This document shows positions 33,058-45,046 of a stretch of 64,000 bases of DNA, one piece after another. Under the pieces are notes generated by a model. That model was not told the DNA's origin, did no database searches, and was given only the letters and a program-made list of their open reading frames with translations. Source of the DNA: Roseococcus pinisoli (GTDB lineage: Bacteria > Pseudomonadota > Alphaproteobacteria > Acetobacterales > Acetobacteraceae); NCBI RefSeq assembly GCF_018413645.1, contig NZ_JAHCDA010000003.1:174969-238968 (forward strand), read 5' to 3'. Within the stretch, counting starts at the first letter, position 1, and each line of letters opens with the position of its first letter. The position numbers were made by a program, and so were the translations under genes.

Positions 33058-35244
33058 TCACGAGGCCGCGTCCCAGACTGTCCCGCCACGGGACAGGCGG
33101 GATGGGTCCTCGGCGATCAGTCTGATCTGTTCGCAGAAGACCTCCTCGGAAAACTCCTCTGCCCGCCGGCTTGCCGCCTCGCCGATGCGGATCCGCTCCT
33201 CCTGCCGGTCAGGCTTCAGGAGGCGCAGGCTGGTTTCGACCAGAGAGGCGGCATCCTCGTAGAGGAACCCGTTCTCGCCCTCGGTGATGATCTCAGGAGC
33301 GCCGCCTGCCTTCAGCGCGAGGGCGACGCATTGGGCAGACATCGCCTCGACGATGGTGATGCCGAAATGCTCGGCTCGCTCCGGATGGGACTGCAGGTCC
33401 ACGCCCAGGCCCGTGCCGTGCCAATAGAGGGCGGCATCGCGATAGAGCTCGCGCATCGTCTCCGCCGGGCTGTCCACATGGAATTCGACGGGCAGGCCCG
33501 CCGCCTTGGCCTGGAGGAAGGCGAGATACTCCCTGGGCTCAGCTCCGGGCACGAGGGAGCCGGCGAGATGGAGGGAGATCGCCCCGTTATGCCGGCGATG
33601 CAGCTCCCGGAAGGCGTCGATGAGCAGGTCGTGACGCTTGGCATGCCCGCTGACAAAGAAGCGCCCGACCGACAGGATCATCGGCCGCTTCCGCGAGGCG
33701 CGTCCGGGCATGCGGGGAACCGGCGGCGAGACGATCCGGATGGGTGGCTCGTCCAGCGCCGCGGTTCGCAGGGCCGCCCGCAGATGGTGGCGCGAATAGC
33801 CGGAGTTCACCATCACGCCCCCATAGCCCGCATAGGCCGAGGCGACGGGCGTCACCTCGGGCGGCAAGGGGAAGGGGAACTGGCACATGAAGAGATTGCG
33901 CCGCGCCCGGGCCGCGATCGGCGGAATCATCTCGTTGCCCATGGCGACCATCAGGTCGAAGGGAGGCAACGCCGCCACCGCCTCGAGGTCGATCGGCACG
34001 ATGCCGCTCAGATCGAGGCCGAGCCGGGAGCCCATGGTCCGCAACCGCAGCCGGCTATAGGGCGCAAGCCCGGCGAAGGCGACGTCGTGATCGCGGCTCA
34101 GCGCCGCGGCGAGGGTCAGGATGTAGCGTTCGCCGCCACCTGGCGTCAGGTCATAGGGAGAGAAGATCAGCGCGCGCCGCCGCGGCGGCGGGGGCTGCGC
34201 CGGTCCGCGCAGGGCGTGGGCCCACCGGCGGGCGAATTTCTGATGGCCGATATCGGAGGACGGGAGGCGGTCATCCGCGCTTTCCGTGCGCGAGAGGGCA
34301 AGGTCGGGGCAACACCAGATTCCTGCCTCCATGGCGGCAATCCGAAAGGAGAGATCGGCATCCTCGTGGCTGCCCGGCTCGAAGGCGAGATCGAAGCCTC
34401 CGGCGTCCAGGAACAGCTGCCGCGGCATGAGCCGGACGGCATCGCAGAGATGGTCCACCCGCGCGGGCTGCGGGGGGACGGACCCGGTCGCTTCTCCCCG
34501 CCGGAGAGGGACTAGGTGCCCTTCTGTGTCCAAGGCATGCCCCGCTGCCACGACCAGCTTGTCCTCGGAGACGAGGATTGGGCCGACGATGCCAGCCCCC
34601 GGCGTGACGGAAAGGGCAAGGCAGAGTTGGCGCAGCCATCCCGATCGAAGACTGACATTCGGATTGAGCAGACAGAGGAGCGGGCTCCGGGCCCGCTCGG
34701 CCAGGATGTTGTTGGCCTCGCCCGATTGGCGTCGCGGCCCCAGCCGGATCACCTCGATGTTAGGGGCCTCTGCCGTGAGAGGTTGCCAGGCGATATCCGC
34801 GATCAGGACCTCATGGACGACGTCCCCAGTGCTGGCCGAGATTTCGCGCAGGCAGCGGGCCGTCGCATACGCGTCGACATTCACGATGAGGATCGAAACC
34901 TCGAGATTCTCCGTTCGAGGAACCGGAAGCTCGGGCGCGGGGGGACGGGTCGCCGGTGAGGCTTGAAGCGAGGGCTGCCGGGCCCCGTGGCCGAGAGAGC
35001 GGCGTAAGGCCTCCATCACCCATCTGGCAGGCGCAGTCATCCGCCAGGATGTCGAGCGGCGAAGCGCCTCCCGCTCCCCGAGTGCCGCGGCCAACTGGCG
35101 TTCGACCTCTTGGCGAGCCATGGCTTGTTCCGCAACCTTCACTCGCGCCGATGCGAGTTCCACTTCCCGTCGCCATGAAACCACCGGTGACAGTCCCGAG
35201 GCCAATGGGTGCTCCCTAGTCTCGTCCCGCAGAAAATCGTTCAT
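33058..35244 (-). CDS. Two-domain glycosyltransferase (GT2-like plus GT4)
   Basis: 728 aa. A coiled-coil N-terminus (about residues 30-75) ends in [11 protein letters not shown], a motif common before glycosyltransferase domains. Residues about 115-350 form a GT2-like domain ([38 protein letters not shown]), but the usual NND of the donor site reads NPN, so this half may be inactive. Residues about 370-715 form a GT-B domain of the GT4 type, with [21 protein letters not shown] and an intact E-x7-E in EHFGITIVE. It probably builds a surface polysaccharide or glycan. Start ATG 35244 has AGGTG upstream; no other polysaccharide genes are nearby. Confidence 0.85.
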
Positions 35245-35396
35245 CCCGCGTAGTTCACCTTTTGGTTGGCGACGCGAATCAAGGTTCGCTTCAACAGGGC
35301 CATATGATCCGGAGCGGCGCTTCGGCAACCGGCGGCATTAGCTTCTGTGGAGAGGATAGTGCCCGCCGCGCGGGAAGTGCTGTAGCCTACCTTCCC

Positions 35397-37028
35397 ATGG
35401 CCTCAGACATCCCGGCTTCCGCCAGACCCGGTCCCGATCACGACGGAGCGATCCGCGGGGCCGGTGCCCCGATACACGGGCGCTTCTTCGGCCGAATCGG
35501 CACGCGCGCGGCCCTGATCATGGTCCTGATCCTGGCGGTGCTGGCCTTCCTCACCGTCAACTCGCTCTTCACCCTCTCCCGTCAGGGCGCAATCATCGAG
35601 GAGATGGGCGTCCGCGACCGCGCGGCCATCGAGGCGGTGGACGACTTCTCCAACGACGTCGCCGACTTCGCGCAGGGCTTCGCCGCCGTCCTCGCCGGCG
35701 TCCTGCCGCCCACCGTCACGGCCGTGCGCATGCAGCGCAACGCCGAGGGCATCATGGAGAGCTTCGACCTCCTGATGTCCATCGTCGGCACGCGGATCGA
35801 CGCGGTGGCGGCTGCTGGCGCGCGGGACATGCGGGCGCGCCTGCCCGACCTCGGCGAGCGCACGCGCGATGCCTTCGCGCGGCGCCAGCGCGACCTCTAC
35901 GCGCCGCTGCAGGAGGAATGGCTCGACATGGTCGTGGCCTTCAACCGCCTCTCCAGCGACGCCCGGGCCATCGCCAAGGCCGATGCGGACCTGAACCTGC
36001 ACCGCGCGCATCAGCTGCAGGAGGAAGGGCGCCTCCTGAACTTCATCGCCGCCGGCGTGGGCGTGCTCAGCCTCGGCCTCATCTGGTTCGTGCTGGTGGT
36101 GCTGACCGCCCGGCCGCTCGGGCAACTGGCGGCCTCCATGCAGAAGCTCGCGCGCGGCCACGCCGATGTGGAGATCCCGGGCGCCGACCGTGCCGACCAG
36201 GTGGGCGAAATGGCGCGCGCCGTTGAGGTGTTCAAGACGAACCTCGGCAACACGAACCGGCTGATGGACCAGGCGCTCGAAGGCGCCCGCCGCACGGCCG
36301 TGGTGACCACGCAGGCGAGCCAGGCGATCGGTCAGGTGAGTGACGGGGCCATGACCCAGCTCGCCGAGCTCCGCCAGGTCTCGGACGCGCTGGGCCACAC
36401 CACGGAGGCGGTGGCGGATGTCGGCCGCAGCACGCAGCGCGCGCGCGACACGGCGTCCGAGGCGCAGTCCCTGCTGGGCGAGAGCCTGGAGAAGGTGCGG
36501 CAGCTCATCGAGACCGTGGACGCGGTGGGCGAGGATACGGAGCGCGTGACGCGCATCGCCGCCACCATTGCCAAGATCGCGACGCAGACGAACATCCTGG
36601 CGATCAATGCCGCCATCGAGGCGGCGCGGGCCGGTGAGCACGGGCGCGGCCTCGCCGTCGTCGCCGAGGAGGTGCGGGCGCTGGCCGCCAATACCGAGGC
36701 GCTGGCGCAGGAGATCGCCGACGTGGTGCTCGCCGCCGGGCGCCGCACGCGCGAGGGCGCGGGCACCGCCGCCGCCGTGGGCGAGGCGATGGACGATTTC
36801 GAGCGGCTGACGGGCGAGAGCGCGCGGCTGGCCGCGGCCATTGCCGTCGCCATGGAGGAGCAGCAGACCACGGTCGCCTCGCTGGACGAGCGCGTGGCCG
36901 TGCTGACGCGCATCGGCCAGTCCAACGCGACGGCCGCGGAGGAAATCACGGTGACGATGATCGACCTGTCCCGCCTCGCGAGCGAATCGCGCAGCGCCGT
37001 GGAGAGCATGGCGGCGCGCTCGGAATGA
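35397..37028 (+). CDS. Methyl-accepting chemotaxis protein
   Basis: 543 aa. Membrane helices lie at about 37-57 and 222-245 and bracket a predicted helical periplasmic sensor ([20 protein letters not shown] through the Arg-rich [15 protein letters not shown]). A HAMP domain follows ([20 protein letters not shown]) and then a coiled-coil signalling domain with the conserved hairpin tip [19 protein letters not shown] and [13 protein letters not shown]. The start at 35397 (MASDIPAS) is preferred; the frame extends to 35262 without membrane character. It lies next to a receiver-phosphatase gene and opposite a cheA-cheB-cheR set, so it is the likely receptor of that pathway. Confidence 0.92.
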
Positions 37029-37078
37029 GACCTGCAACCAGCAAAGGCTGCCCCAACACGCTGAGGCGCGTGCGGATT

Positions 37079-37098
37079 CCGGCCGCGACTGCGGCCGG
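37079..37098. promoter_or_regulatory. Hairpin between the MCP and receiver-phosphatase genes
   Basis: CCGGCCGC/GCGGCCGG, 8-bp stem with a GACT loop, in the 163-bp gap between the two genes. It could attenuate read-through so that the receptor is made in excess of the phosphatase. Nothing else is seen in the gap. Confidence 0.35.
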
Positions 37099-37191
37099 CG
37101 CCGCCCAACTGACTTTCCGGCCGGGCGTTCCAATGGTGCGGCGAAGCCAAGGCCGCGAAGGCGGCCGCCCGGCGTCTGAGGGGCGCTCAGC

Positions 37192-38340
37192 ATGACCGCC
37201 GAAATACTGGTCGTCGACGACAGCAGCTTCAACCGGCTGCTGCTGAAGCGCCGGCTGGCCGAGCTCGGCTATGGCGAGCCGGCCATGGCGGTGAACGGTG
37301 TCGAGGCGCTGGCCGCCATCGCGGGAAAGTCGTTCGACATCGTCCTGCTCGATCTCGAAATGCCTGAGCTCGACGGCATCGGCGTGCTGGAGCGGCTGCA
37401 CGACATGCCGAACGCGCCGCCGGTCATCGTGATCTCGGCGCAGACGGAGATGTCCGGTGTCATCCGCTGCATTGAGCTGGGCGCGGAGGACTATCTTCCG
37501 AAGTCCTTCGACCCGCCGCTGCTCAAGGCACGTCTGCAGGCGGTGCTGGAGAAGAAGCGCCTGCGCGATCTTGCGGCGGAGCGTCTGCAGGCGCTGGAGA
37601 GCGAGCTGGAAAGCGCGCGCCTGGCCCAGCTCTCTTTGGTGCCGCGCGACTTCGCCGGCCTCTCCCGCGGGCGCCTGACCGTCGCCGCCCATATGGAGCC
37701 CGCCCGCGAGGTGGGCGGCGACCTCTACGACATGCGCTGGATCGGCAAGCGGCACCTCATGTTCGCCGTGGCCGACGTGGCCGGGAAGGGCGCTTCGGCC
37801 GGCCTCACCATGGCGCGGACCATGGGGCTGATCCGCGCCGGCGTCCGGCTGGCGGACACGGCCGGGCAAGTGCCGGATCCGGGGCCGCTGATGGCGCTCG
37901 CCAATGACGAGCTCGCCCTCGACAATCCGGACATGACCTTCGTGACCGCCGCGCTGGCGATCCTGGATGCGGAGACGGGCGAGGGGCGCATCTGCGTGGC
38001 CGGTCACGAGGCGCCGCTGCGGCTTTCGGCCGCCGGGGTCGAGGTGATGGGAGGCTATTCCATTCAGCCTGCGCTCGGCGTGATGGAGGAGTTCCCCTAT
38101 GCCAGCGCGCCCTTCGTGCTGGCCCCGGGCGAGACCATGTTGCTGCTGACCGACGGCGTGACCGAGGCGCAGGACATCTCGGGCGAGCTCTTCGGCAAGG
38201 AGGCGGTGCTGGCCGCGCTCGGTTCGCTCGTGGAGCCTGGCCCGGCGATCGCGGCGCTGCTGGCGGCCGTGGCGGGCTTCGTGAAGGAGGCGCGGCCCGC
38301 CGACGACGTGACGGTGCTCGCGGTCCGCTTCCAGGCCTGA
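37192..38340 (+). CDS. Response regulator with SpoIIE/PP2C phosphatase output (RsbU-like)
   Basis: 382 aa. Receiver domain 1-115 with intact acidic pocket Asp9/Asp10, phospho-acceptor Asp54 (LLDLEMPE) and Lys104. A linker coiled coil follows to about 145, then a PP2C-type SpoIIE domain with the metal aspartates EPAREVGGDLYD, VADVAGKG, LTDGVTE and ARPADDVTVL, all present. It should dephosphorylate a STAS antagonist when its receiver is phosphorylated, and the STAS gene at 44188 is the obvious target. It is convergent with cheA, ending 2 bp away. The pairing of kinase and receiver is inferred. Confidence 0.92.
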   Translation: MTAEILVVDDSSFNRLLLKRRLAELGYGEPAMAVNGVEALAAIAGKSFDIVLLDLEMPELDGIGVLERLHDMPNAPPVIVISAQTEMSGVIRCIELGAEDYLPKSFDPPLLKARLQAVLEKKRLRDLAAERLQALESELESARLAQLSLVPRDFAGLSRGRLTVAAHMEPAREVGGDLYDMRWIGKRHLMFAVADVAGKGASAGLTMARTMGLIRAGVRLADTAGQVPDPGPLMALANDELALDNPDMTFVTAALAILDAETGEGRICVAGHEAPLRLSAAGVEVMGGYSIQPALGVMEEFPYASAPFVLAPGETMLLLTDGVTEAQDISGELFGKEAVLAALGSLVEPGPAIAALLAAVAGFVKEARPADDVTVLAVRFQA

Positions 38341-38342
38341 CG

Positions 38343-40757
38343 CTAGAGGCTGTCGGGCTCCAGGAGCAGGACCGGATCGCCATTGCCCAGCACGCCGACG
38401 CCGCCGACGCCCGGCGTGCCGGCCAGGGCCGGATGCAGTGGCTTGAGCAGCAGGTCGGTCCGGCGGCCGACCCGGCCGACGCCCAGCGCCAGCGCGCCGG
38501 CCGGACGGCGGATCATCACGATGGCGCTGCTGCTGGAGGCGGGCAGGCGCAGGACGGATTCCAGCGTCGTGACGGCCTGCCCTGCCGGCAGCTGCTCGGG
38601 CCGGATCACCGCTTCCACGCGGCCTGCGGGGAGCGCGTAGGGATGGCCGGCGGCCTCCACCAGCAGCACGGGCTGGATGGCGGCGGTCAGCGGTAGGTCG
38701 AGGACGAAGCGCGTGCCCGCGCCGGGCGCGCTTTCCACCCGCACCGAGCCGCCGGCCCGCCGCGCCGCATCCTGCACCACGTCCAGCCCGACGCCGCGGC
38801 CCGAGGTCTCGGTCACCGTCTCGCGCGTCGAGAAGCCGGGGAGGAAGAGCAGCGCATGGATCTCCTCCCGGCTCAGCCGCGCCCCCGCCTCGGCGGAAAT
38901 CAGCGTGCGGGAGACGGCGCGCGACAGCACGGCATTGTCGTCGATGCCGCGCCCGTCATCGGCGATGCTGACCAGCAGGCGGCCGGGCTGGCGATCGGCG
39001 ACCAGATGCAGCCGGCCCGTGGCGGGCTTGCCGGCGGCCAGGCGCTCCGAGGGCGGCTCGACGCCATGGTCCACCGCATTGCGGACGAGGTGCAGCAGCG
39101 GGTCGGCCAGGAGATCGGCGAGGCTGCGGTCGAGCTGCACTTCCTCGCCCTGGATCTCGAGCGCGACCTCGCGGCCCTGGGCCTCCGCCGTGGCGCGGAG
39201 CACGCGCGGAAGGCGCATCGCTAGGCTGGCGAAGGGCACCACGCGTAGCTCCAGCACCGCCTCGTCGAGCTGGCGGAGGGCGAGGGAGAGGCGGCCGCTG
39301 GCGCGCTCGGCGAGGCCGGCGGTCGCGCGCAGCCGCTCCAGCGCATTGCCGAGTACCTGGGAGCTCCGCGCCGGCAGGCGCGCCTGCAGCGAGGCGAGGT
39401 CGTCCAGCGCGGTGCGGGCCTGGGGTGTCGCCAGCGCCTCGCCCAGCGCCAGTGCCGCGGCGCGCAGCTCGGCTTCGAGCGCGATCACCGCATCGATGCT
39501 GTCCTGCCGGACGCGCATGGTGGGCGCGGGCGGCGGGGCATCGGCGGCGGCGAGATCGGTCAGCGCGCTGCCTTCCGGATCGGCTTCGGCGCGCAGGGCC
39601 GCCAGCTCCTCAGGCGGCAGGTCGCTGGCGACAAAGATGTCGAGCGCTTCGGGTGATCCGGCGCTGCCGAGGACCTCGCCGGCGCGGGCCAGGAAGGGCT
39701 CGGCGATGGCCTCGGCCGTGGGAAGGGGGCCGAGCCGCAGGCGCCAGATCCGGCGGCCCGCCTGCAGGGCGGCAGCGGCGCGGGCGTGGGAGGAGGCCGG
39801 CAGCACGGCGGCGAGCCCCGGGGTCAGCGGGGGCGGCAGGGGCAGCGCGCGGTCGGCGACGGGGACAAGGGTCGACGCGGTCAGCGCCCGGCGGAAATCG
39901 TCCCGCAGCTCGGCCAGCCGTTGCGAGGCGGCCTCGCCGGAGCGGCTGGCGAGGTCCTGGATCTGGCGGCCAAGCGCCTCGGCCGCCTCGTTGCCGAGGG
40001 CATCGGCGCTGGCGGCCAGGCTTTCGGCGGCGACAATGAGGTCGGGTCCCGGTTCTTCGAGCGCCGCGGCCAGGGCCTCGGCCGAAGGGCGCAGATCGCC
40101 GGCAAGGGCGGGGATACGCTCGCCACCGGTCGCGGCCTGCAGCAGCAGCAACGCGCGGCGCAGCCGACCCAGCGCGGCCAGCCGGTCAGGGGCGGTGGGA
40201 ATGGCCTCCAGCAGCAGGGCTAGGCGCGGCAGCTTCGCCGCCTGGGCGGCCTGGGCCAGGGCGGTCGCCTTGGCCGGCTGCTGGGCCAGGAAGGGAAGCT
40301 CGCTCGCGAACCGCGAGGCCAGGGTCAGCCGAAGCGGGTCTGCGGTGGCGGAAGTGGCCGGCGCATCGGCCTTGGGCTGGGGCGCCGGTGCCGGCCTGCC
40401 TTCCGCCAGGGCCACAAGACGGGCCAGGAGTTCCGGCGGCGGCGCGCGGTCCTGCCGCTGGTCGAGCAGGGCGGAGCGCTGGCCGCGCAGCGTGTCCACC
40501 GCCTCGAGCAACGCGTCGCGCACCGGCTTGTCGAGGGCGAGGCGCCCGGCGCGGGCCAGGCCCAGCACGTCCTCCGCCTTGTGCGCCAGACCGCCGAGAC
40601 CCGCCGCGCCGATGGCGGCCGACATGCCCTTGAGGCTGTGCATGGCGCGGAACAGCACGTCGATCGGCGCCTCGCCGGCCAGGCCGTGCTCGAGCGTGTC
40701 GAGGTGCTCGGCCGTTTCGGCGGCGAATTCCTGCCAGAGGGGATCATCGGCCTCCAT
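38343..40757 (-). CDS. cheA: Chemotaxis histidine kinase CheA
   Basis: 804 aa. HPt domain at the N-terminus with phospho-accepting His40 (RAMHSLKGMSAA). A long Ala/Pro-rich middle section of about 300 aa contains weak helical repeats. Then come dimerisation helices, the ATPase (N-box HLVRNAVDHGVE, G1 DDGRGID, G2 TSGRGVGLDVV) and a C-terminal CheW-like domain (LPLTAAIQPVLLVEAAGHPYALPAGRVEAVI). No separate P2 domain is recognisable. It is the last gene of the minus-strand cluster, 3 bp after the HPt-receiver gene, and meets the phosphatase gene tail to tail. Confidence 0.93.
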   Translation of the reverse strand: MEADDPLWQEFAAETAEHLDTLEHGLAGEAPIDVLFRAMHSLKGMSAAIGAAGLGGLAHKAEDVLGLARAGRLALDKPVRDALLEAVDTLRGQRSALLDQRQDRAPPPELLARLVALAEGRPAPAPQPKADAPATSATADPLRLTLASRFASELPFLAQQPAKATALAQAAQAAKLPRLALLLEAIPTAPDRLAALGRLRRALLLLQAATGGERIPALAGDLRPSAEALAAALEEPGPDLIVAAESLAASADALGNEAAEALGRQIQDLASRSGEAASQRLAELRDDFRRALTASTLVPVADRALPLPPPLTPGLAAVLPASSHARAAAALQAGRRIWRLRLGPLPTAEAIAEPFLARAGEVLGSAGSPEALDIFVASDLPPEELAALRAEADPEGSALTDLAAADAPPPAPTMRVRQDSIDAVIALEAELRAAALALGEALATPQARTALDDLASLQARLPARSSQVLGNALERLRATAGLAERASGRLSLALRQLDEAVLELRVVPFASLAMRLPRVLRATAEAQGREVALEIQGEEVQLDRSLADLLADPLLHLVRNAVDHGVEPPSERLAAGKPATGRLHLVADRQPGRLLVSIADDGRGIDDNAVLSRAVSRTLISAEAGARLSREEIHALLFLPGFSTRETVTETSGRGVGLDVVQDAARRAGGSVRVESAPGAGTRFVLDLPLTAAIQPVLLVEAAGHPYALPAGRVEAVIRPEQLPAGQAVTTLESVLRLPASSSSAIVMIRRPAGALALGVGRVGRRTDLLLKPLHPALAGTPGVGGVGVLGNGDPVLLLEPDSL

Positions 40758-40760
40758 GGC

Positions 40761-41438
40761 TCAGCCTCCCACGGCCTGGCGGGCGGTGGCCAGGATTTCC
40801 GCCCCCGCCCGCTCGGCGAGGTCGGGGGAGAGGGCGCCGGAAGGCTTAGCCACGGCGGCGAAGGCACCGCGGCGCAGGGCCTCCAGCGCCGCCGGGGTGC
40901 CGGGATGGGCGGCGGAGGACACGACCACCACCGCGCCATGCCCGGCCAGGGCCCATTCGGCGAGGAAGCCCATGCCGTCCAGCACCGGCATCTCCAGGTC
41001 GAGCAAGGTGAGGTCCGGCCGCAGCTCCGCCTGCGCGGCCAGCCCGGCCGCACCATCCGCTGCCTCGCCCACCACGGCGAAGCGCGGATCGGCGGCCAGG
41101 ATGCCGCGGAGCAGGCGGCGCATCATCGCGCTGTCGTCGACGATGAGCGTGCGGATCGGGCGATCGGCGGCCGCAGTTCCGGGCGCGGGCGCTGGTGGCG
41201 TCTCGCCGGAGGCGATGGCGGCGAGGGCCTCGGCCGTGGCCCGCAGAAGATCGAGGTCGGTGACCTCGTCCAGCTCGCGCAGCCTGGCCTGAAGCGGCGC
41301 CATCTCCATCCCATCCGCCATGCCGCGCAGCCGCACGACGGCGCGCTGCGCCGCGGGCAGGTCCGCCGCGAGGGCGAGATCCGCGCAGAGGGGCAGGAAT
41401 TCCTCGCGAAACGCGGCGAGCAGCTCCTCGTCCATCAT
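40761..41438 (-). CDS. Receiver protein with degenerate HPt-like N-terminus
   Basis: 225 aa. Residues 1-75 are helical and align with an HPt core, but the HxLKG position reads VRLRG (Val35 replaces His), so phosphotransfer is impossible there. Residues 96-222 form a CheB-type receiver: DDSAMM, phospho-acceptor Asp147 (LLDLEMPVLDG), SS at 174-175 and Lys198 in AVAKPSG. There is no methylesterase domain. It overlaps cheB by 4 bp (ATGA) and precedes cheA. It could be a phosphate sink or a CheA-binding regulator; that is inference. Confidence 0.85.
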   Translation of the reverse strand: MMDEELLAAFREEFLPLCADLALAADLPAAQRAVVRLRGMADGMEMAPLQARLRELDEVTDLDLLRATAEALAAIASGETPPAPAPGTAAADRPIRTLIVDDSAMMRRLLRGILAADPRFAVVGEAADGAAGLAAQAELRPDLTLLDLEMPVLDGMGFLAEWALAGHGAVVVVSSAAHPGTPAALEALRRGAFAAVAKPSGALSPDLAERAGAEILATARQAVGG

Positions 41439-42457
41439 TCGGCCTTCCAGATGTCGCGCAGCAGCTTGCCGATCGCCTCGGGCGCCAGGGATTCCGCGGC
41501 GGGAACGCGGGCGCGCGCAGAGTGCGGCATGCCGCTGACGACGGCGGTCTCCCCGCTCTGCACCAGAATACGGCCGCCGATGCGGGCGAGCTCCGCCGCA
41601 CCGGCCGCGCCGTCCTCGCCCATGCCGGTCAGCACCACGCCGCAGGCGGGCAGGCCGAGCAGGGCCGCGGAGCGGAAGAGCAGGTCGGCCGAGGGATGCA
41701 CCGGCGCGCTCGTCGGCGCGAGGCGAAGCGCCAGCGCGGCGCCGACGCGCAGCAGCACCGCATCGGTCGGCAGCAGCGCGGCTTCGCCCGGCAGCAACGG
41801 CGCATCGTTCCGCGCGACGCGCACCGGCCAGCCGGCTCGCCGCTGCAGCTGCTCCGCGAGCTCGACCGCGAGGCTCTGCGGCATGTGCTGGGCGACGACC
41901 ACCGGCACCGGCAGCGGCCCGCAGGCGGCGAGCAGGACGGCGAGCGCATCCGGCCCGCCGGTCGAGGCGGCCATGAGGATCAGCGGCGGTGGCGCATGGT
42001 CGGCCGCCCGCGCTGGCGGCGGGACGGCGGGGGCGGGCTGGAGCCGGGCCTGCGCAGCCGCCCAATGCCGCAGTCGATCGCGCAGCGCGCGGTCCAGATG
42101 GCCGAGGTCGAGGCCGCCCAGGCCGGTCTCCTTGCTCACATAGTCGGCAGCGCCGGCTTCCAGCGCGGCGAGGGCGGCGGGGCTGTCCTGCTGGGTGTGA
42201 TGGCTGACCATGATCACGGCCGGCGGATTGGGCAGCGCCATGATCCGGCGCGTCGCCTCGATGCCGCCGAGGACGGGCATTTCCACGTCCATCGCGACGA
42301 CCTGGGGCTGGTGCTCGCGCACGGCGGCGATCGCAGCCTCGCCATTGGCGGCCTCGGCCACCACGCGCAGATCGCCCTCGGCCTCGATGATCCGCCGGAG
42401 GGCGATGCGCATGAACGCGCTGTCGTCGACGACGACGACGGGGATGCGTCCGGTCAC
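41435..42457 (-). CDS. cheB: Chemotaxis protein-glutamate methylesterase CheB
   Basis: 340 aa from a GTG start that overlaps the previous stop (GTGA). Receiver domain with Asp57 (AMDVEMPVLGG) and Lys109, a Pro/Ala linker, and the methylesterase domain with the catalytic triad Ser165 (ASTGGPDAL), His191 (AQHMPQ) and Asp282 (TGMGEDGA). It removes methyl groups from receptors to reset sensitivity. All active-site residues are present. Confidence 0.95.
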   Translation of the reverse strand: MTGRIPVVVVDDSAFMRIALRRIIEAEGDLRVVAEAANGEAAIAAVREHQPQVVAMDVEMPVLGGIEATRRIMALPNPPAVIMVSHHTQQDSPAALAALEAGAADYVSKETGLGGLDLGHLDRALRDRLRHWAAAQARLQPAPAVPPPARAADHAPPPLILMAASTGGPDALAVLLAACGPLPVPVVVAQHMPQSLAVELAEQLQRRAGWPVRVARNDAPLLPGEAALLPTDAVLLRVGAALALRLAPTSAPVHPSADLLFRSAALLGLPACGVVLTGMGEDGAAGAAELARIGGRILVQSGETAVVSGMPHSARARVPAAESLAPEAIGKLLRDIWKAE

Positions 42458-43404
42458 AGCGCCCCCATCAGATGCGGCGACATGACGGGCAGGGGCGCGC
42501 CGTCGAGCCGGGCGATGGCCTGGACCAGCCCGTTCCGCTGGACGAGGGGGGTGATGTCGGCCGCCGGCACCATGCGCACGCCCGCCACCTGCTCGACGGC
42601 GACCATCACTTCCGGCCGCGTCGACAGGCGGATGAGCGGCGCGGGGCCCTGCTCCAGGGTCGAAGGGCCGCCCATGGCCAGGCCGCCATCCACCACCGGC
42701 AGCACGGCGCCGCGATGCGCGGCCACCCCGGCGAGGCCGGCGCGTGGCGTGGGCAGCGGGGTGGTGGGCGGCAGGATGGCCACCACGGCCTCCGCCGGCA
42801 GGGCCACGTCCATTCCCGCGGCGCGGAAGAGGACGAGGTGACGCTGCGGAACCGGAACGGGCGGGGCGATCTCGACGGTGGGTGGCGCGTGATCCAGGGC
42901 CTGGCGTGCCGCCGCCGAGACGAGCCAATCGGCAAACGCAGAATCCGCCTCGGGGCCTGCCTCGATCCGGGTCGCCGGCAGGCCGAAGCGCCGGCCCTCA
43001 TGGTTCAGCACCAGCAGGAGGATAGGCTCCTCGGCACCATCCTCTTCCGTGCCGGCCGCGAAGCCCGTGGACAGGACGAGCACGGGCGCGCCCCCGGCCT
43101 CCGCCAGCCCTGCCACGCCGGTCGATGTCCCCGGCATGGGGCGAAGCGCCGGCATGGGGAGGATGTGCTCCGCCAGCTCGGCGGGGACATCGAGCGCGAT
43201 CCCGCCGAGCAGGACGCGCAGGACCCCGATGCGCGAGGCGCGGCCGCGGCTCGACGCGAGGGGGAGAGGAGCCGGCGCCGCCTCTTCGGCGACGATGGCC
43301 GGCGGCACCTCGCGGGGCGCCGCAACGGCGGGGGCGGCCATGCCCTGCGCGAAGGTGAACCAGCTGCCGCCCGGCAGCGGATGGAGGATCTCGGCGTCAG
43401 ACAT
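42454..43404 (-). CDS. Tandem CheW-domain coupling protein
   Basis: 316 aa. Two CheW-like folds are visible: one at about 55-160 (VLRVLLGGIALDVPAELAEHI, LLLVLNHEGRRFGLPATRI) and one at about 195-305 (HLVLFRAAGMDVALPAEAVVAI, GVAAHRGAVLPVVDGG). Single CheW proteins are about 150-170 aa, so this is a duplication that could bridge two CheA or receptor units. It overlaps cheR by 8 bp at its start and cheB by 4 bp at its end. Confidence 0.85.
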   Translation of the reverse strand: MSDAEILHPLPGGSWFTFAQGMAAPAVAAPREVPPAIVAEEAAPAPLPLASSRGRASRIGVLRVLLGGIALDVPAELAEHILPMPALRPMPGTSTGVAGLAEAGGAPVLVLSTGFAAGTEEDGAEEPILLLVLNHEGRRFGLPATRIEAGPEADSAFADWLVSAAARQALDHAPPTVEIAPPVPVPQRHLVLFRAAGMDVALPAEAVVAILPPTTPLPTPRAGLAGVAAHRGAVLPVVDGGLAMGGPSTLEQGPAPLIRLSTRPEVMVAVEQVAGVRMVPAADITPLVQRNGLVQAIARLDGAPLPVMSPHLMGAL

Positions 43405-44143
43405 CCGGCATGGACCAGAGCGATTCGCCGCAGGCAATGGCACTGGGCGGCGTGCGGTCCGTCGGGCCGAGGGCGAGGAGGCCGCCCGGCTGCAGCGCCG
43501 CGCACAGGGCTTCGGTCACGGCGCGGCGCGCGGGCTCCGTCAGGTAGATCAGGACGTTGCGGCAGAACACCACGTCAAAGCCCGTCTCGGAGAGGCCGAG
43601 GAGGTTGCGCCGCTCGAAGCGGAGCACGCGGCGCAGCGAGGGGTGCAGGCGCGTCTGGCCTGCCGCGTCCAGGAACCATCGCCGCAAGTCGGCGGGAACC
43701 AGGCCCAGCGGATCGCCGAGCCCCGGCGCGATGATGCCGGCCTCCGCGCTGGCGAGGGCCGGGCGGCAGAGATCCAGGCCCAGCACCTCGATTTCGATAC
43801 CGGGCGCGCCATGCGTCGCCTCCAGGGCCAGGGCGGCCAGGGTGAAGGCTTCCTCGCCCGTCGCGCAGCCGGCGGAAAGCAGGCGGAAGGGGCGCCCCTC
43901 GGCGCGGGCTCTCGCCAGCGCGGCCGGAAGATGGTGCGCGACGGCGGCGCATTGCACCGGATGGCGGAACAGGCGCGTCTCCTGCACCGTCACGGCATCG
44001 AGCAGCGCGGCCCAATGCGGGTCCTCGGTATCGGGCGGGACGGCGGCGCAGGCTTCGACCAGGTGGGGAATCCGCCGCAGCCGTGCCTCGAGCACGGGCG
44101 AGGCAGCGAAGCCGACCAGGGATTCGAGCGCGGCCACCACCAC
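43397..44143 (-). CDS. cheR: Chemotaxis protein methyltransferase CheR
   Basis: 248 aa from a GTG start. The N-terminal helical domain is somewhat short and leads to TVQETRLFR (the TTNETxFFR helix). The SAM-binding LLSAGCATGEEAFTLA and the NVLIYL motif are intact. It methylates receptor glutamates. A CTG codon at 44191, overlapping the STAS stop, would restore about 16 residues and is an alternative start. The gene belongs to one overlapping cluster from the STAS gene to cheA. Confidence 0.93.
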   Translation of the reverse strand: MVVAALESLVGFAASPVLEARLRRIPHLVEACAAVPPDTEDPHWAALLDAVTVQETRLFRHPVQCAAVAHHLPAALARARAEGRPFRLLSAGCATGEEAFTLAALALEATHGAPGIEIEVLGLDLCRPALASAEAGIIAPGLGDPLGLVPADLRRWFLDAAGQTRLHPSLRRVLRFERRNLLGLSETGFDVVFCRNVLIYLTEPARRAVTEALCAALQPGGLLALGPTDRTPPSAIACGESLWSMPDV

Positions 44144-44187
44144 CGCCTCGCCGGCCGGGGCGGAGGCGGCGAGGGGGGCCGCGGTGC

Positions 44188-44511
44188 TCAGGCGGCGGCG
44201 GCCTCGGCCCGCGTGGCGAAGGCCGGGATGATCTTGTCGAAGCCGCTGATCTCGAAGACCTCGCGCACCGGCGCCTGCAGTCCGACGACGGCGAAGGTCG
44301 AGCCGGCGGTCTTGGCCTGCTTGGCGGCCTTCAGCAGCACGCGCAGCCCGGCGGAGGAGACGTAGCGGACATTGGCGAGGTCGGCGATGACACCACCCTT
44401 CGCCAGCAGCCCGATCAGCGCCGTCTCGGTCTGCGCTGCCGTCGCCGTGTCGAGCCGGCCGTCCAGCACCGCGACGGTCTTCGTCCCCTCGGTGGTTTCG
44501 CTGATTTCCAT
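44188..44511 (-). CDS. STAS-domain anti-sigma factor antagonist
   Basis: 107 aa single STAS domain (ISETTEGTKTVAVLDGRLDTATA at the start). The phosphorylatable serine lies in YVSSAGLRVLL, probably Ser53. This is the RsbV/SpoIIAA type: phosphorylated and inactivated by an RsbW-like kinase, reactivated by a PP2C phosphatase. Both partners are in this cluster. GGAGAGC precedes the ATG. It is followed by cheR. Confidence 0.93.
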   Translation of the reverse strand: MEISETTEGTKTVAVLDGRLDTATAAQTETALIGLLAKGGVIADLANVRYVSSAGLRVLLKAAKQAKTAGSTFAVVGLQAPVREVFEISGFDKIIPAFATRAEAAAA

Positions 44512-44632
44512 AAGCTCGCTCTCCGTCGTGGTCGGCCCCGCGGCCGGGGGGCGCTTCGGCAGGCAGCCTATCTTACATCGGCCGCTTCTGTAATCGGTCT
44601 GATCGATGGCCCGGATCGGCCGGAGGCTGCGC

Positions 44633-45046
44633 CTAGCTGCCGAGCGGCAGGGAGCAGCTCAACCGGTTCGTGCCGTCCTGGCGCTCGTAGCGGGCATCGC
44701 GCGTCATCTTGCGGACGAGATGGACGCCGAGCCCCCCCACGTCGCGTTCCTCCAGCGCCGTTTCGGTATCCACCTCTTCGCGCGCGAGAGGGTTGTAGGC
44801 CGGCCCGTCATCCGTCAGCAGCAGCTCGAGCGCGTCGTCGGAAGGGGTGATGTCGAGGGTGAAGTAGGTGGCGCCGGCAGCATGCATGGCGACGTTGGCG
44901 GCGATCTCCTCGACGACCAGGCCCAGCCGTGCGGCGACGGCCATGTCGATCTCCGCTTCCTCGGCATAGGCTTCGAGCGCGACCGCCAGTTCCTCGACGC
45001 TCTCGAGGGTCGCGGGCAGCCGGCGATGGAAGGCTGGTCTGGCCAA
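44633..45046 (-). CDS. RsbW-like ATP-binding serine kinase/anti-sigma factor
   Basis: 137 aa GHKL ATPase of the HATPase_c_2 type, from a TTG start preceded by GAGGGGA. N-box VVEEIAANVAMHA, G1 LTDDGPAYNP and the GGLGVHLV glycine motif are intact. It should phosphorylate the STAS protein and, when free, bind a sigma factor or another target. It is 121 bp upstream of the STAS gene, so they are likely one operon or share a promoter in that gap. No sigma factor gene is present in the window. Confidence 0.9.
   Translation of the reverse strand: MARPAFHRRLPATLESVEELAVALEAYAEEAEIDMAVAARLGLVVEEIAANVAMHAAGATYFTLDITPSDDALELLLTDDGPAYNPLAREEVDTETALEERDVGGLGVHLVRKMTRDARYERQDGTNRLSCSLPLGS

Follow-up and report, generated by a model that had tools for sequence, protein, structure and literature searches.

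Chemosensory systems have reportedly been proposed, in a review from 2018, as frequent sensors of the partner switches of Gram-negative bacteria. Here we examine such a pairing in a 64,000-nucleotide stretch of Roseococcus pinisoli DNA (hereafter the window), in which positions 35397-45046 hold chemosensory (che) genes together with the genes of a phosphatase with receiver and SpoIIE domains (REC-SpoIIE), a STAS antagonist and an RsbW-like ATPase. The reading that we favor, with a probability of about 0.62, is that the chemoreceptor array controls the partner switch by phosphotransfer from CheA to REC-SpoIIE and from there through STAS and RsbW, the whole being inherited as one module.

The che1 system of Shewanella oneidensis reportedly uses a partner switch to act on sigma-S (Bouillet 2016, cited in PMC7666153), and by the definition given in the relevant passages of PMC7666153 the window is alike in that its partner switch is encoded with a Che-like locus; the first-pass annotation of this DNA, which had presented the fusion of the two pathways as a novelty, was overstated in this respect. 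Unlike che1, whose target is RpoS, the window genome has no RpoS that could be recognized among its 10 sigma70 region-2 hits. Shewanella CrsR combines a receiver, a phosphatase and a kinase in one protein, and the window differs from that layout in having the phosphatase and RsbW as separate genes. It also holds a protein that che1 is not known to have, a histidine phosphotransfer (HPt)-like domain lacking its histidine and fused to a CheY-type receiver (the pseudo-HPt-CheY protein, or receiver fusion).

Among the Alphaproteobacteria, Rhodobacter capsulatus has RbaY, RbaV and RbaW, respectively a REC-PP2C phosphatase, a STAS protein and an RsbW homologue, in one pathway whose upstream kinase is given as unknown in the passages describing it; two-hybrid assays there found no contact of RbaW with the sigma factors tried, and RbaV is considered a possible output (PMC3999984). 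The window likewise has an alphaproteobacterial set of REC-phosphatase, STAS protein and RsbW, but its switch is linked to cheA, a chemoreceptor gene and adaptation genes, whereas the word "chemotaxis" is absent from the text of PMC3999984. In Bacillus cereus, the kinase RsbK acts on the REC-PP2C phosphatase RsbY upstream of RsbV/RsbW, and the methyltransferase RsbM tunes the kinase; unlike the CheA array of the window, RsbK is a hybrid sensor kinase, and the target is stated to be sigma-B (PMC4574943). Partner switching by a REC-phosphatase and a STAS protein is also described for the HptB-HsbR-HsbA and RssB-RssC systems of Pseudomonas aeruginosa (PMC5812489, PMC12143880). HsbR receives its input via HptB from hybrid kinases, with no CheA linkage stated in the sections of PMC5812489 on this pathway. 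RssB is a near-full-length solved relative of the window's REC-SpoIIE (PDB 3EQ2, E-value 3e-22; named in PMC12143880) and has been likened to PPM phosphatases whose activation is driven by a linker (PMC12143880).

In Nostoc punctiforme, the chemotaxis-like Hmp system and the HmpU-V-W partner switch serve one process, and the STAS protein HmpV has been suggested as the output (PMC6495340, PMC8256260). This pairing of a chemotaxis-like system with a partner switch resembles that of the window; however, the Nostoc system is cyanobacterial and tied to hormogonium development and motility, and no link from CheA to HmpU is stated in the parts of these papers that treat it. Chemosensory classes and STAS kinases have also been surveyed in the Campylobacterota (PMC9239204). 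A search of the literature found no description of such a cluster in the Acetobacteraceae.

For many additional chemosensory systems the output is described as unknown (PMC9239204, section 6), and the same is said of what several partner switches of Gram-negative bacteria act on (PMC8256260). As the switch is single-copy in the window genome and clustered with its likely kinase, a few deletions should suffice to test the route all the way from the receptor to the target. A switch that is kept where the cluster has no cheR or cheB, and a dead HPt fused to CheY, also make for clear predictions of signal routing.

Organization of the cluster and proposed signal route

Chemosensory and partner-switching genes had been assigned to one 10-kb block, and Pfam confirms all nine of them, as follows (coordinates in the window):

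35397..37028, + strand: methyl-accepting chemotaxis protein (MCP) with HAMP and MCP signalling domains (MCPsignal 2e-25, Pfam)
37192..38340, + strand: REC-SpoIIE (PPM) response-regulator phosphatase (REC 6e-26, SpoIIE 4e-39, Pfam) with phospho-acceptor D54 and an interdomain linker
38343..40757, - strand: CheA (P1/HPt 4e-15, with H40; HATPase_c 2.5e-17, Pfam)
40761..41438, - strand: HPt-like domain without the His (pseudo-HPt), joined to a CheY6/CheB-type receiver with D147; CheY-equivalent of the cluster
41435..42457, - strand: CheB methylesterase with receiver (CheB 2e-42, Pfam)
42454..43404, - strand: CheW-type adaptor with two CheW-like stretches (CheW 5e-21, Pfam)
43397..44143, - strand: CheR methyltransferase (CheR 2e-33, Pfam)
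44188..44511, - strand: stand-alone STAS antagonist, RsbV/SpoIIAA-like (STAS 1e-17, Pfam; TIGR00377 above cut-off), Ser-Ser at residues 52-53
44633..45046, - strand: RsbW-like HATPase_c_2 serine kinase (HATPase_c_2 9e-18, Pfam) with a TTG start and intact N, G1 and G2 boxes

Two genes, those of the MCP and REC-SpoIIE, point towards the seven remaining ones, which are tightly packed on the other strand: cheR and the adaptor gene overlap by 8 bp, the adaptor gene and cheB by 4 bp, and cheB and the receiver-fusion gene by 4 bp. The cheA gene starts 3 bp past the fusion gene, the STAS gene ends 44 bp from cheR and the RsbW gene ends 121 bp from the STAS gene. This run probably forms one operon. 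MCP, CheA (with its P1 histidine and ATPase boxes) and a CheW-type adaptor, the components of a Che system, are all present in the one cluster, as are both adaptation enzymes, CheR and CheB. The C-terminal CheW-like domain of CheA is weak, at 23.0 bits just below the Pfam cut-off of 23.5. By hydropathy, the MCP has hydrophobic segments at about residues 30-60 and 211-245, and the ~150 residues between them have no Pfam match; its orthologues adjoin REC-SpoIIE in relatives.

The signal route that we propose would begin with the MCP, which through the CheW-type adaptor would set CheA autophosphorylation at H40, with CheB and CheR adapting the receptor. Phosphorylated CheA would then pass its phosphate to D54 of the REC-SpoIIE receiver, and the phosphorylated receiver would, by way of the linker, activate the phosphatase, which would dephosphorylate STAS, probably at S53. 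The unphosphorylated STAS protein would then engage RsbW or another target, with RsbW re-phosphorylating STAS. The pseudo-HPt-CheY protein would offer CheA another receiver and would most likely serve as a sink for phosphate or as a gate, shaping the signal. Each phosphotransfer in this scheme, as well as the sign of its effect and the target, is what we infer.

Conservation of the cluster in the Acetobacteraceae

Domains, motifs, gene coupling, co-inheritance and the single copy of the switch can be read from the sequences themselves, the co-inheritance from 150 genomes, all of this one bacterial family, that were sampled evenly out of a larger set. REC-SpoIIE occurs in 13 of the 150 (E ≤ 1e-40) and window-type CheA in 10 (E ≤ 2e-131; outside these 10, no match is better than 7.8e-59, with at most 6 candidates scored per genome), and all 10 genomes with window-type CheA fall among the 13 with REC-SpoIIE. 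RsbW was matched in 30 of the 150 (E ≤ 1e-5), mostly weakly. The STAS protein, searched for in the 13 REC-SpoIIE genomes only, was found in 12 of them and not in G148. Taking linkage as the same contig and within 10 kb, STAS is linked to cheA in 10/10 genomes (in G072 scored on an N-terminal CheA fragment, the gene being cut by the contig end) and RsbW in 9/10, in keeping with the neighborhood that the first-pass annotation had expected in related genomes, and REC-SpoIIE lies near cheA in 7/10. The distance matrices of CheA, REC-SpoIIE, STAS, RsbW and the receiver fusion are also correlated (10 pairs, r 0.58-0.95; for each pair 0/2000 label permutations were as high).

Named relatives were compared among the best 80 of 536, where three loci coincide with sampled genomes (L004 with G044, L007 with G104 and L008 with G072) and are each counted once. 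All nine genes are found in an Acetobacteraceae metagenome-assembled genome (MAG; L003), in Roseococcus thiosulfatophilus (L004) and in Roseococcus sp. (L005), of which L003 and L005 are additional to the ten CheA genomes. Two Falsiroseomonas contigs (L006, L010) begin inside cheA, leaving the STAS side out of view, with REC-SpoIIE and MCP adjoining; in Rhodovarius (L008) only part of cheA is visible. The che cluster of Azospirillum (L009) has no SpoIIE domain. At 72 other loci, whose CheA is less similar (L011-L082; 32-40% identical, mostly Pseudomonas and Paenibacillus), single-sequence tblastn gave no SpoIIE-domain, STAS or RsbW match to the window proteins (0/72, E ≤ 1e-3), several of these loci being on short contigs.

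Genes of the relatives were called by a rough G+C-position caller, and tblastn found genes that it had missed. In G107, one strand carries MCP-RsbW-STAS-adaptor-CheB-receiver fusion-CheA-REC-SpoIIE; counted from its first in-frame start, REC-spoIIE shares 4 bp with cheA. The proximity of the che cluster and the partner-switching module could be due to chance, as REC-SpoIIE lying apart from cheA in 3/10 genomes might suggest. To this we give a negligible probability, considering the linkage of STAS and RsbW to cheA, the joint presence of the genes even when they are split, the one-strand order of G107 and the empty contrast loci; the neighborhood data of the family genomes and the 0/72 lead us to reject it. 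Because cheA, STAS, RsbW and REC-SpoIIE are co-conserved in the family, the cluster is more than chance proximity, and the block is best read as one inherited module.

CheR was not found by tblastn in the G107 cluster, and in that of Neoroseomonas marina (G104, the same as L007) neither CheR nor CheB was found, the adaptor gene being flanked by gaps of 51 and 361 bp that are too small for cheR or cheB; CheA, REC-SpoIIE, STAS and RsbW are kept. The switch is therefore retained where adaptation genes are absent from the cluster (G104 and G107, as judged on the cluster only). This bears on whether the partner switch might instead feed into the array, with STAS or RsbW modulating the receptor, CheA or CheR. 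Such a reversed flow would suit the position of the STAS and RsbW genes upstream of cheR in one gene run, and the sections of the Campylobacterota survey on STAS proteins predict one that might act on a chemoreceptor (PMC9239204). We nonetheless consider it very improbable, since the receiver sits on the phosphatase, so that a signal would naturally run from a kinase to the phosphatase, and the switch is kept in the two clusters in which CheR was not found.

No recurrent extra gene that could be a target was seen throughout beside the clusters, whose flanks vary among genomes (judged partly by eye). Adjoining the RsbW/STAS end of two clusters are divergent genes (L005 5044-5778 and L096 6082-6870), whose proteins have no Pfam match and share a similar short stretch by eye.

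The remaining three of the 13 REC-SpoIIE genomes (G006, G110 and G148) carry a more distant copy, 44-46% identical. In G006, the stretch with this copy (L106 5547-13260) also holds STAS, RsbW and a HAMP hybrid histidine kinase; RsbW and STAS adjoin the copy of G110, and that of G148 begins at a contig end. The stretch L107 1-3396, from the same family, likewise has a more distant copy near RsbW and STAS. Five family genomes have another STAS-RsbW pair outside the che cluster (L108, L109, L110, L111, L112). The nearest RsbW-like gene of G005 is on another contig (L144 6605-8232), adjoining an FHA-SpoIIE phosphatase.

Catalytic residues

Key motifs are intact in the window proteins and conserved among relatives. 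The phospho-acceptor His of CheA is present in 11/11 alignment rows (G072, with its gene cut by contig ends, and L006 and L010, with no P1 in the contig, are omitted), the receiver Asp and the SpoIIE metal-site Asp motifs of REC-SpoIIE in 14/14, the STAS Ser-Ser motif in 12/12 and the N, G1 and G2 boxes of RsbW in 11/11 (omitting G005, in which no RsbW was found). The choice of the STAS phospho-serine and the names of the RsbW boxes are taken over from the RsbV/SpoIIAA and RsbW families. For CheB and CheR, the residues were checked by eye in the window proteins only. No credible solved relative of the RsbW-like protein was found by phmmer. The earlier statement that all catalytic residues are intact holds for the CheA, REC-SpoIIE, STAS and RsbW motifs, but not for the supposed HPt domain of the receiver fusion.

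The probable kinase of REC-SpoIIE

A tree of 28 REC-SpoIIE proteins places 14 CheA-linked members on one side of a branch (100/99) and the 14 others opposite. The latter are labelled as histidine kinase-associated as a group, a histidine kinase being Pfam-confirmed within the same stretch for five (L106, L129, L130, L133, L134), and in the stretches fetched around the REC-SpoIIEs not linked to CheA, CheA matched ATPase regions only. The two groups also differ near the phosphorylation site. A Ser after the acid pair and a Glu at D+2 are found in 14/14 CheA-linked REC-SpoIIEs, and 0/14 of the others have either; at the equivalent positions the cluster CheB has Ser in 11/11 and Glu in 10/11, and the receiver fusion has both in 12/12. 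We further compared the 19 positions at which the CheA-linked consensus differs from the consensus of the four nearest other REC-SpoIIEs, and 7 of these agree with CheB or the fusion on the CheA-linked side only. In two-component systems the region of these residues is a kinase contact. The REC domain of CheA-linked REC-SpoIIE bears CheB/CheY-type residues near its phosphorylation site, and as a pointer to CheA as the kinase this pattern, found post hoc, is suggestive.

The receiver fusion

The protein between CheB and CheA had been described as an HPt-receiver hybrid, a description that has to be corrected. In none of 12 rows does its N-terminal domain show a His at the HPt position, for which reason we reject a phosphorelay function of this domain; the receiver Asp is kept in 12/12. 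The AlphaFold model of the N-terminal domain has four helices (mean pLDDT, the predicted local distance difference test score, 93), and a Foldseek search ranked the P1 domain of Rhodobacter sphaeroides CheA3 first at an E-value of 0.47, followed by further HPt domains as well as by designed bundles and receptors, all at 0.47 or worse; by rank only, the model points to an HPt-like fold. The best PDB relative of the fusion receiver is R. sphaeroides CheY6 (E-value 5e-24), and that of the CheA P1 domain is CheA3 P1 (E-value 1e-8), the partner of CheY6 in that solved complex. By fold alone, the Thermotoga maritima CheB receiver ranks above CheY6 for the fusion receiver.

The fusion is present in all 12 clusters aligned. 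In Azospirillum (L009) and a delta-proteobacterial MAG (L012), a stand-alone receiver that is 41-48% identical lies between cheB and cheA. On these sequence comparisons we regard the fusion as the CheY-equivalent of the cluster with a dead HPt added. The earlier observation that there is no single-domain CheY is literally true, but the fusion receiver would take its place and may compete for the phosphate of CheA.

It could therefore be asked whether the pseudo-HPt-CheY protein is the main output of CheA, acting for instance on the motor or on something else, with other histidine kinases mainly driving REC-SpoIIE and the shared cluster serving co-regulation. The likeness of its receiver to CheY6, its occupying the slot of the stand-alone receiver in Azospirillum and the delta-proteobacterial MAG and its constant presence would all fit such a role, as would the location of REC-SpoIIE elsewhere in 3/10 genomes and the position of its more distant relatives near histidine kinases (five Pfam-confirmed). 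We consider this unlikely, however, as Pfam finds no histidine kinase besides CheA in the cluster, the CheA-linked REC-SpoIIEs have CheB/CheY-type residues that their kinase-neighbored relatives lack, cheA and REC-spoIIE overlap in G107 and REC-SpoIIE is kept in all 10 sampled genomes with window-type CheA.

Weighing the proposed route from CheA to REC-SpoIIE

Several observations weigh against phosphotransfer from CheA to REC-SpoIIE as the controlling step, or against the strength of the case for it. Judged on sequence, the CheY6-like receiver would be at least as good a CheA target as REC-SpoIIE. The residue convergence is one evolutionary event at few positions, and 2 of the 19 positions agree with CheB or the fusion on the other side only (one of them an alignment gap), with 2 agreeing on both and 8 on neither. 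REC-SpoIIE is present but apart from cheA in three of the ten genomes (G011, G141 and G072). In G011 and G141 it lies mid-contig beside its MCP, so that the separation is not explained by a contig break; for G072, where the gene is found on a contig of 12 kb, this is less certain. The cluster of G005 has no RsbW. The tally is limited to the one evenly sampled family, and the correlation of distance matrices, having no housekeeping control, may be explained by shared species history alone.

Overall, the coupling of a chemosensory cluster to a partner switch is real and conserved, although not a new concept. The linear scheme of the first-pass annotation, in which the receptor signal runs through CheA to the SpoIIE receiver, the STAS protein and RsbW, agrees with the linkage and with the lack of evident alternative partners in the genome, but it is too simple because of the CheY-equivalent: the fusion, as a second intact receiver, is also a likely CheA target, which weakens the simple route.

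Partners and target of the switch in the window genome

There is a single SpoIIE hit in the genome, that of the cluster, and there are three STAS hits, of which the two outside the cluster are sulfate permeases. Among the 16 HATPase_c_2 hits, the RsbW-like protein of the cluster has the best E-value, 3e-17. The four that come after it, at 1e-7 to 3e-6, are histidine kinases by a Pfam scan confined to them, and the remaining 11 are weaker. Because of this single-copy status, the phosphatase, STAS and RsbW are very probably mutual partners.

The first-pass annotation had the switch release a sigma factor or another target, and for a sigma factor we find no support: all 10 sigma70 region-2 hits lie on contigs other than that of the cluster, and in R. 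capsulatus, which has the nearest alphaproteobacterial system studied, two-hybrid assays found no contact of RbaW with the sigma factors tried (PMC3999984). Five of the 10 have an adjacent anti-sigma factor (NepR with PhyR in one case, FecR in three and RskA_C in one), and five have no recognized neighboring anti-sigma factor, namely RpoH, an RpoD-size one whose frame adjoins a dnaG-like gene (by eye) and three of the extracytoplasmic function (ECF) type, eight hits in all being taken as ECF-type by size, domains or neighboring anti-sigma factor. This survey narrows the candidates and identifies no target; a non-sigma partner of STAS or RsbW is more likely than a sigma factor. Tentatively, one could go further and suppose that the array took over the single partner switch of the genome, replacing the hybrid kinase of its relatives, and drives a non-sigma STAS effector, with the dead HPt mimicking CheA P1 and gating the phosphate that reaches the phosphatase.

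The target might also be flagellar, as with HsbA and FlgM in Pseudomonas, the module then tuning the expression of motility genes. FliG occurs in all 13 of the REC-SpoIIE-bearing genomes, to which the tally was restricted, and HptB-HsbR-HsbA is described, in the passages on its output, as freeing FliA through FlgM (PMC5812489). None of the nine cluster proteins has a flagellar domain (Pfam), however, the FliG of the window genome is on a different contig and the FliG count, which neither supports nor excludes a motility role, may perhaps be background, so we regard a flagellar target as improbable. The suggestion of the first-pass annotation that the output is not directed to motility nevertheless stays tentative. 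The claim that there is no flagellar gene is correct for the block, with FliG and a second che cluster elsewhere in the genome.

That second cluster (L145 7052-12751, contig C1) encodes a ChpT-like phosphotransferase, a CheA with a C-terminal receiver and a CheB, and by eye also a CheW-like protein and a CheR. There are three MCP hits in the genome in all. Beside the cluster described here, a large glycosyltransferase-like gene (window 33058-35328, by eye) lies divergent from the MCP gene.

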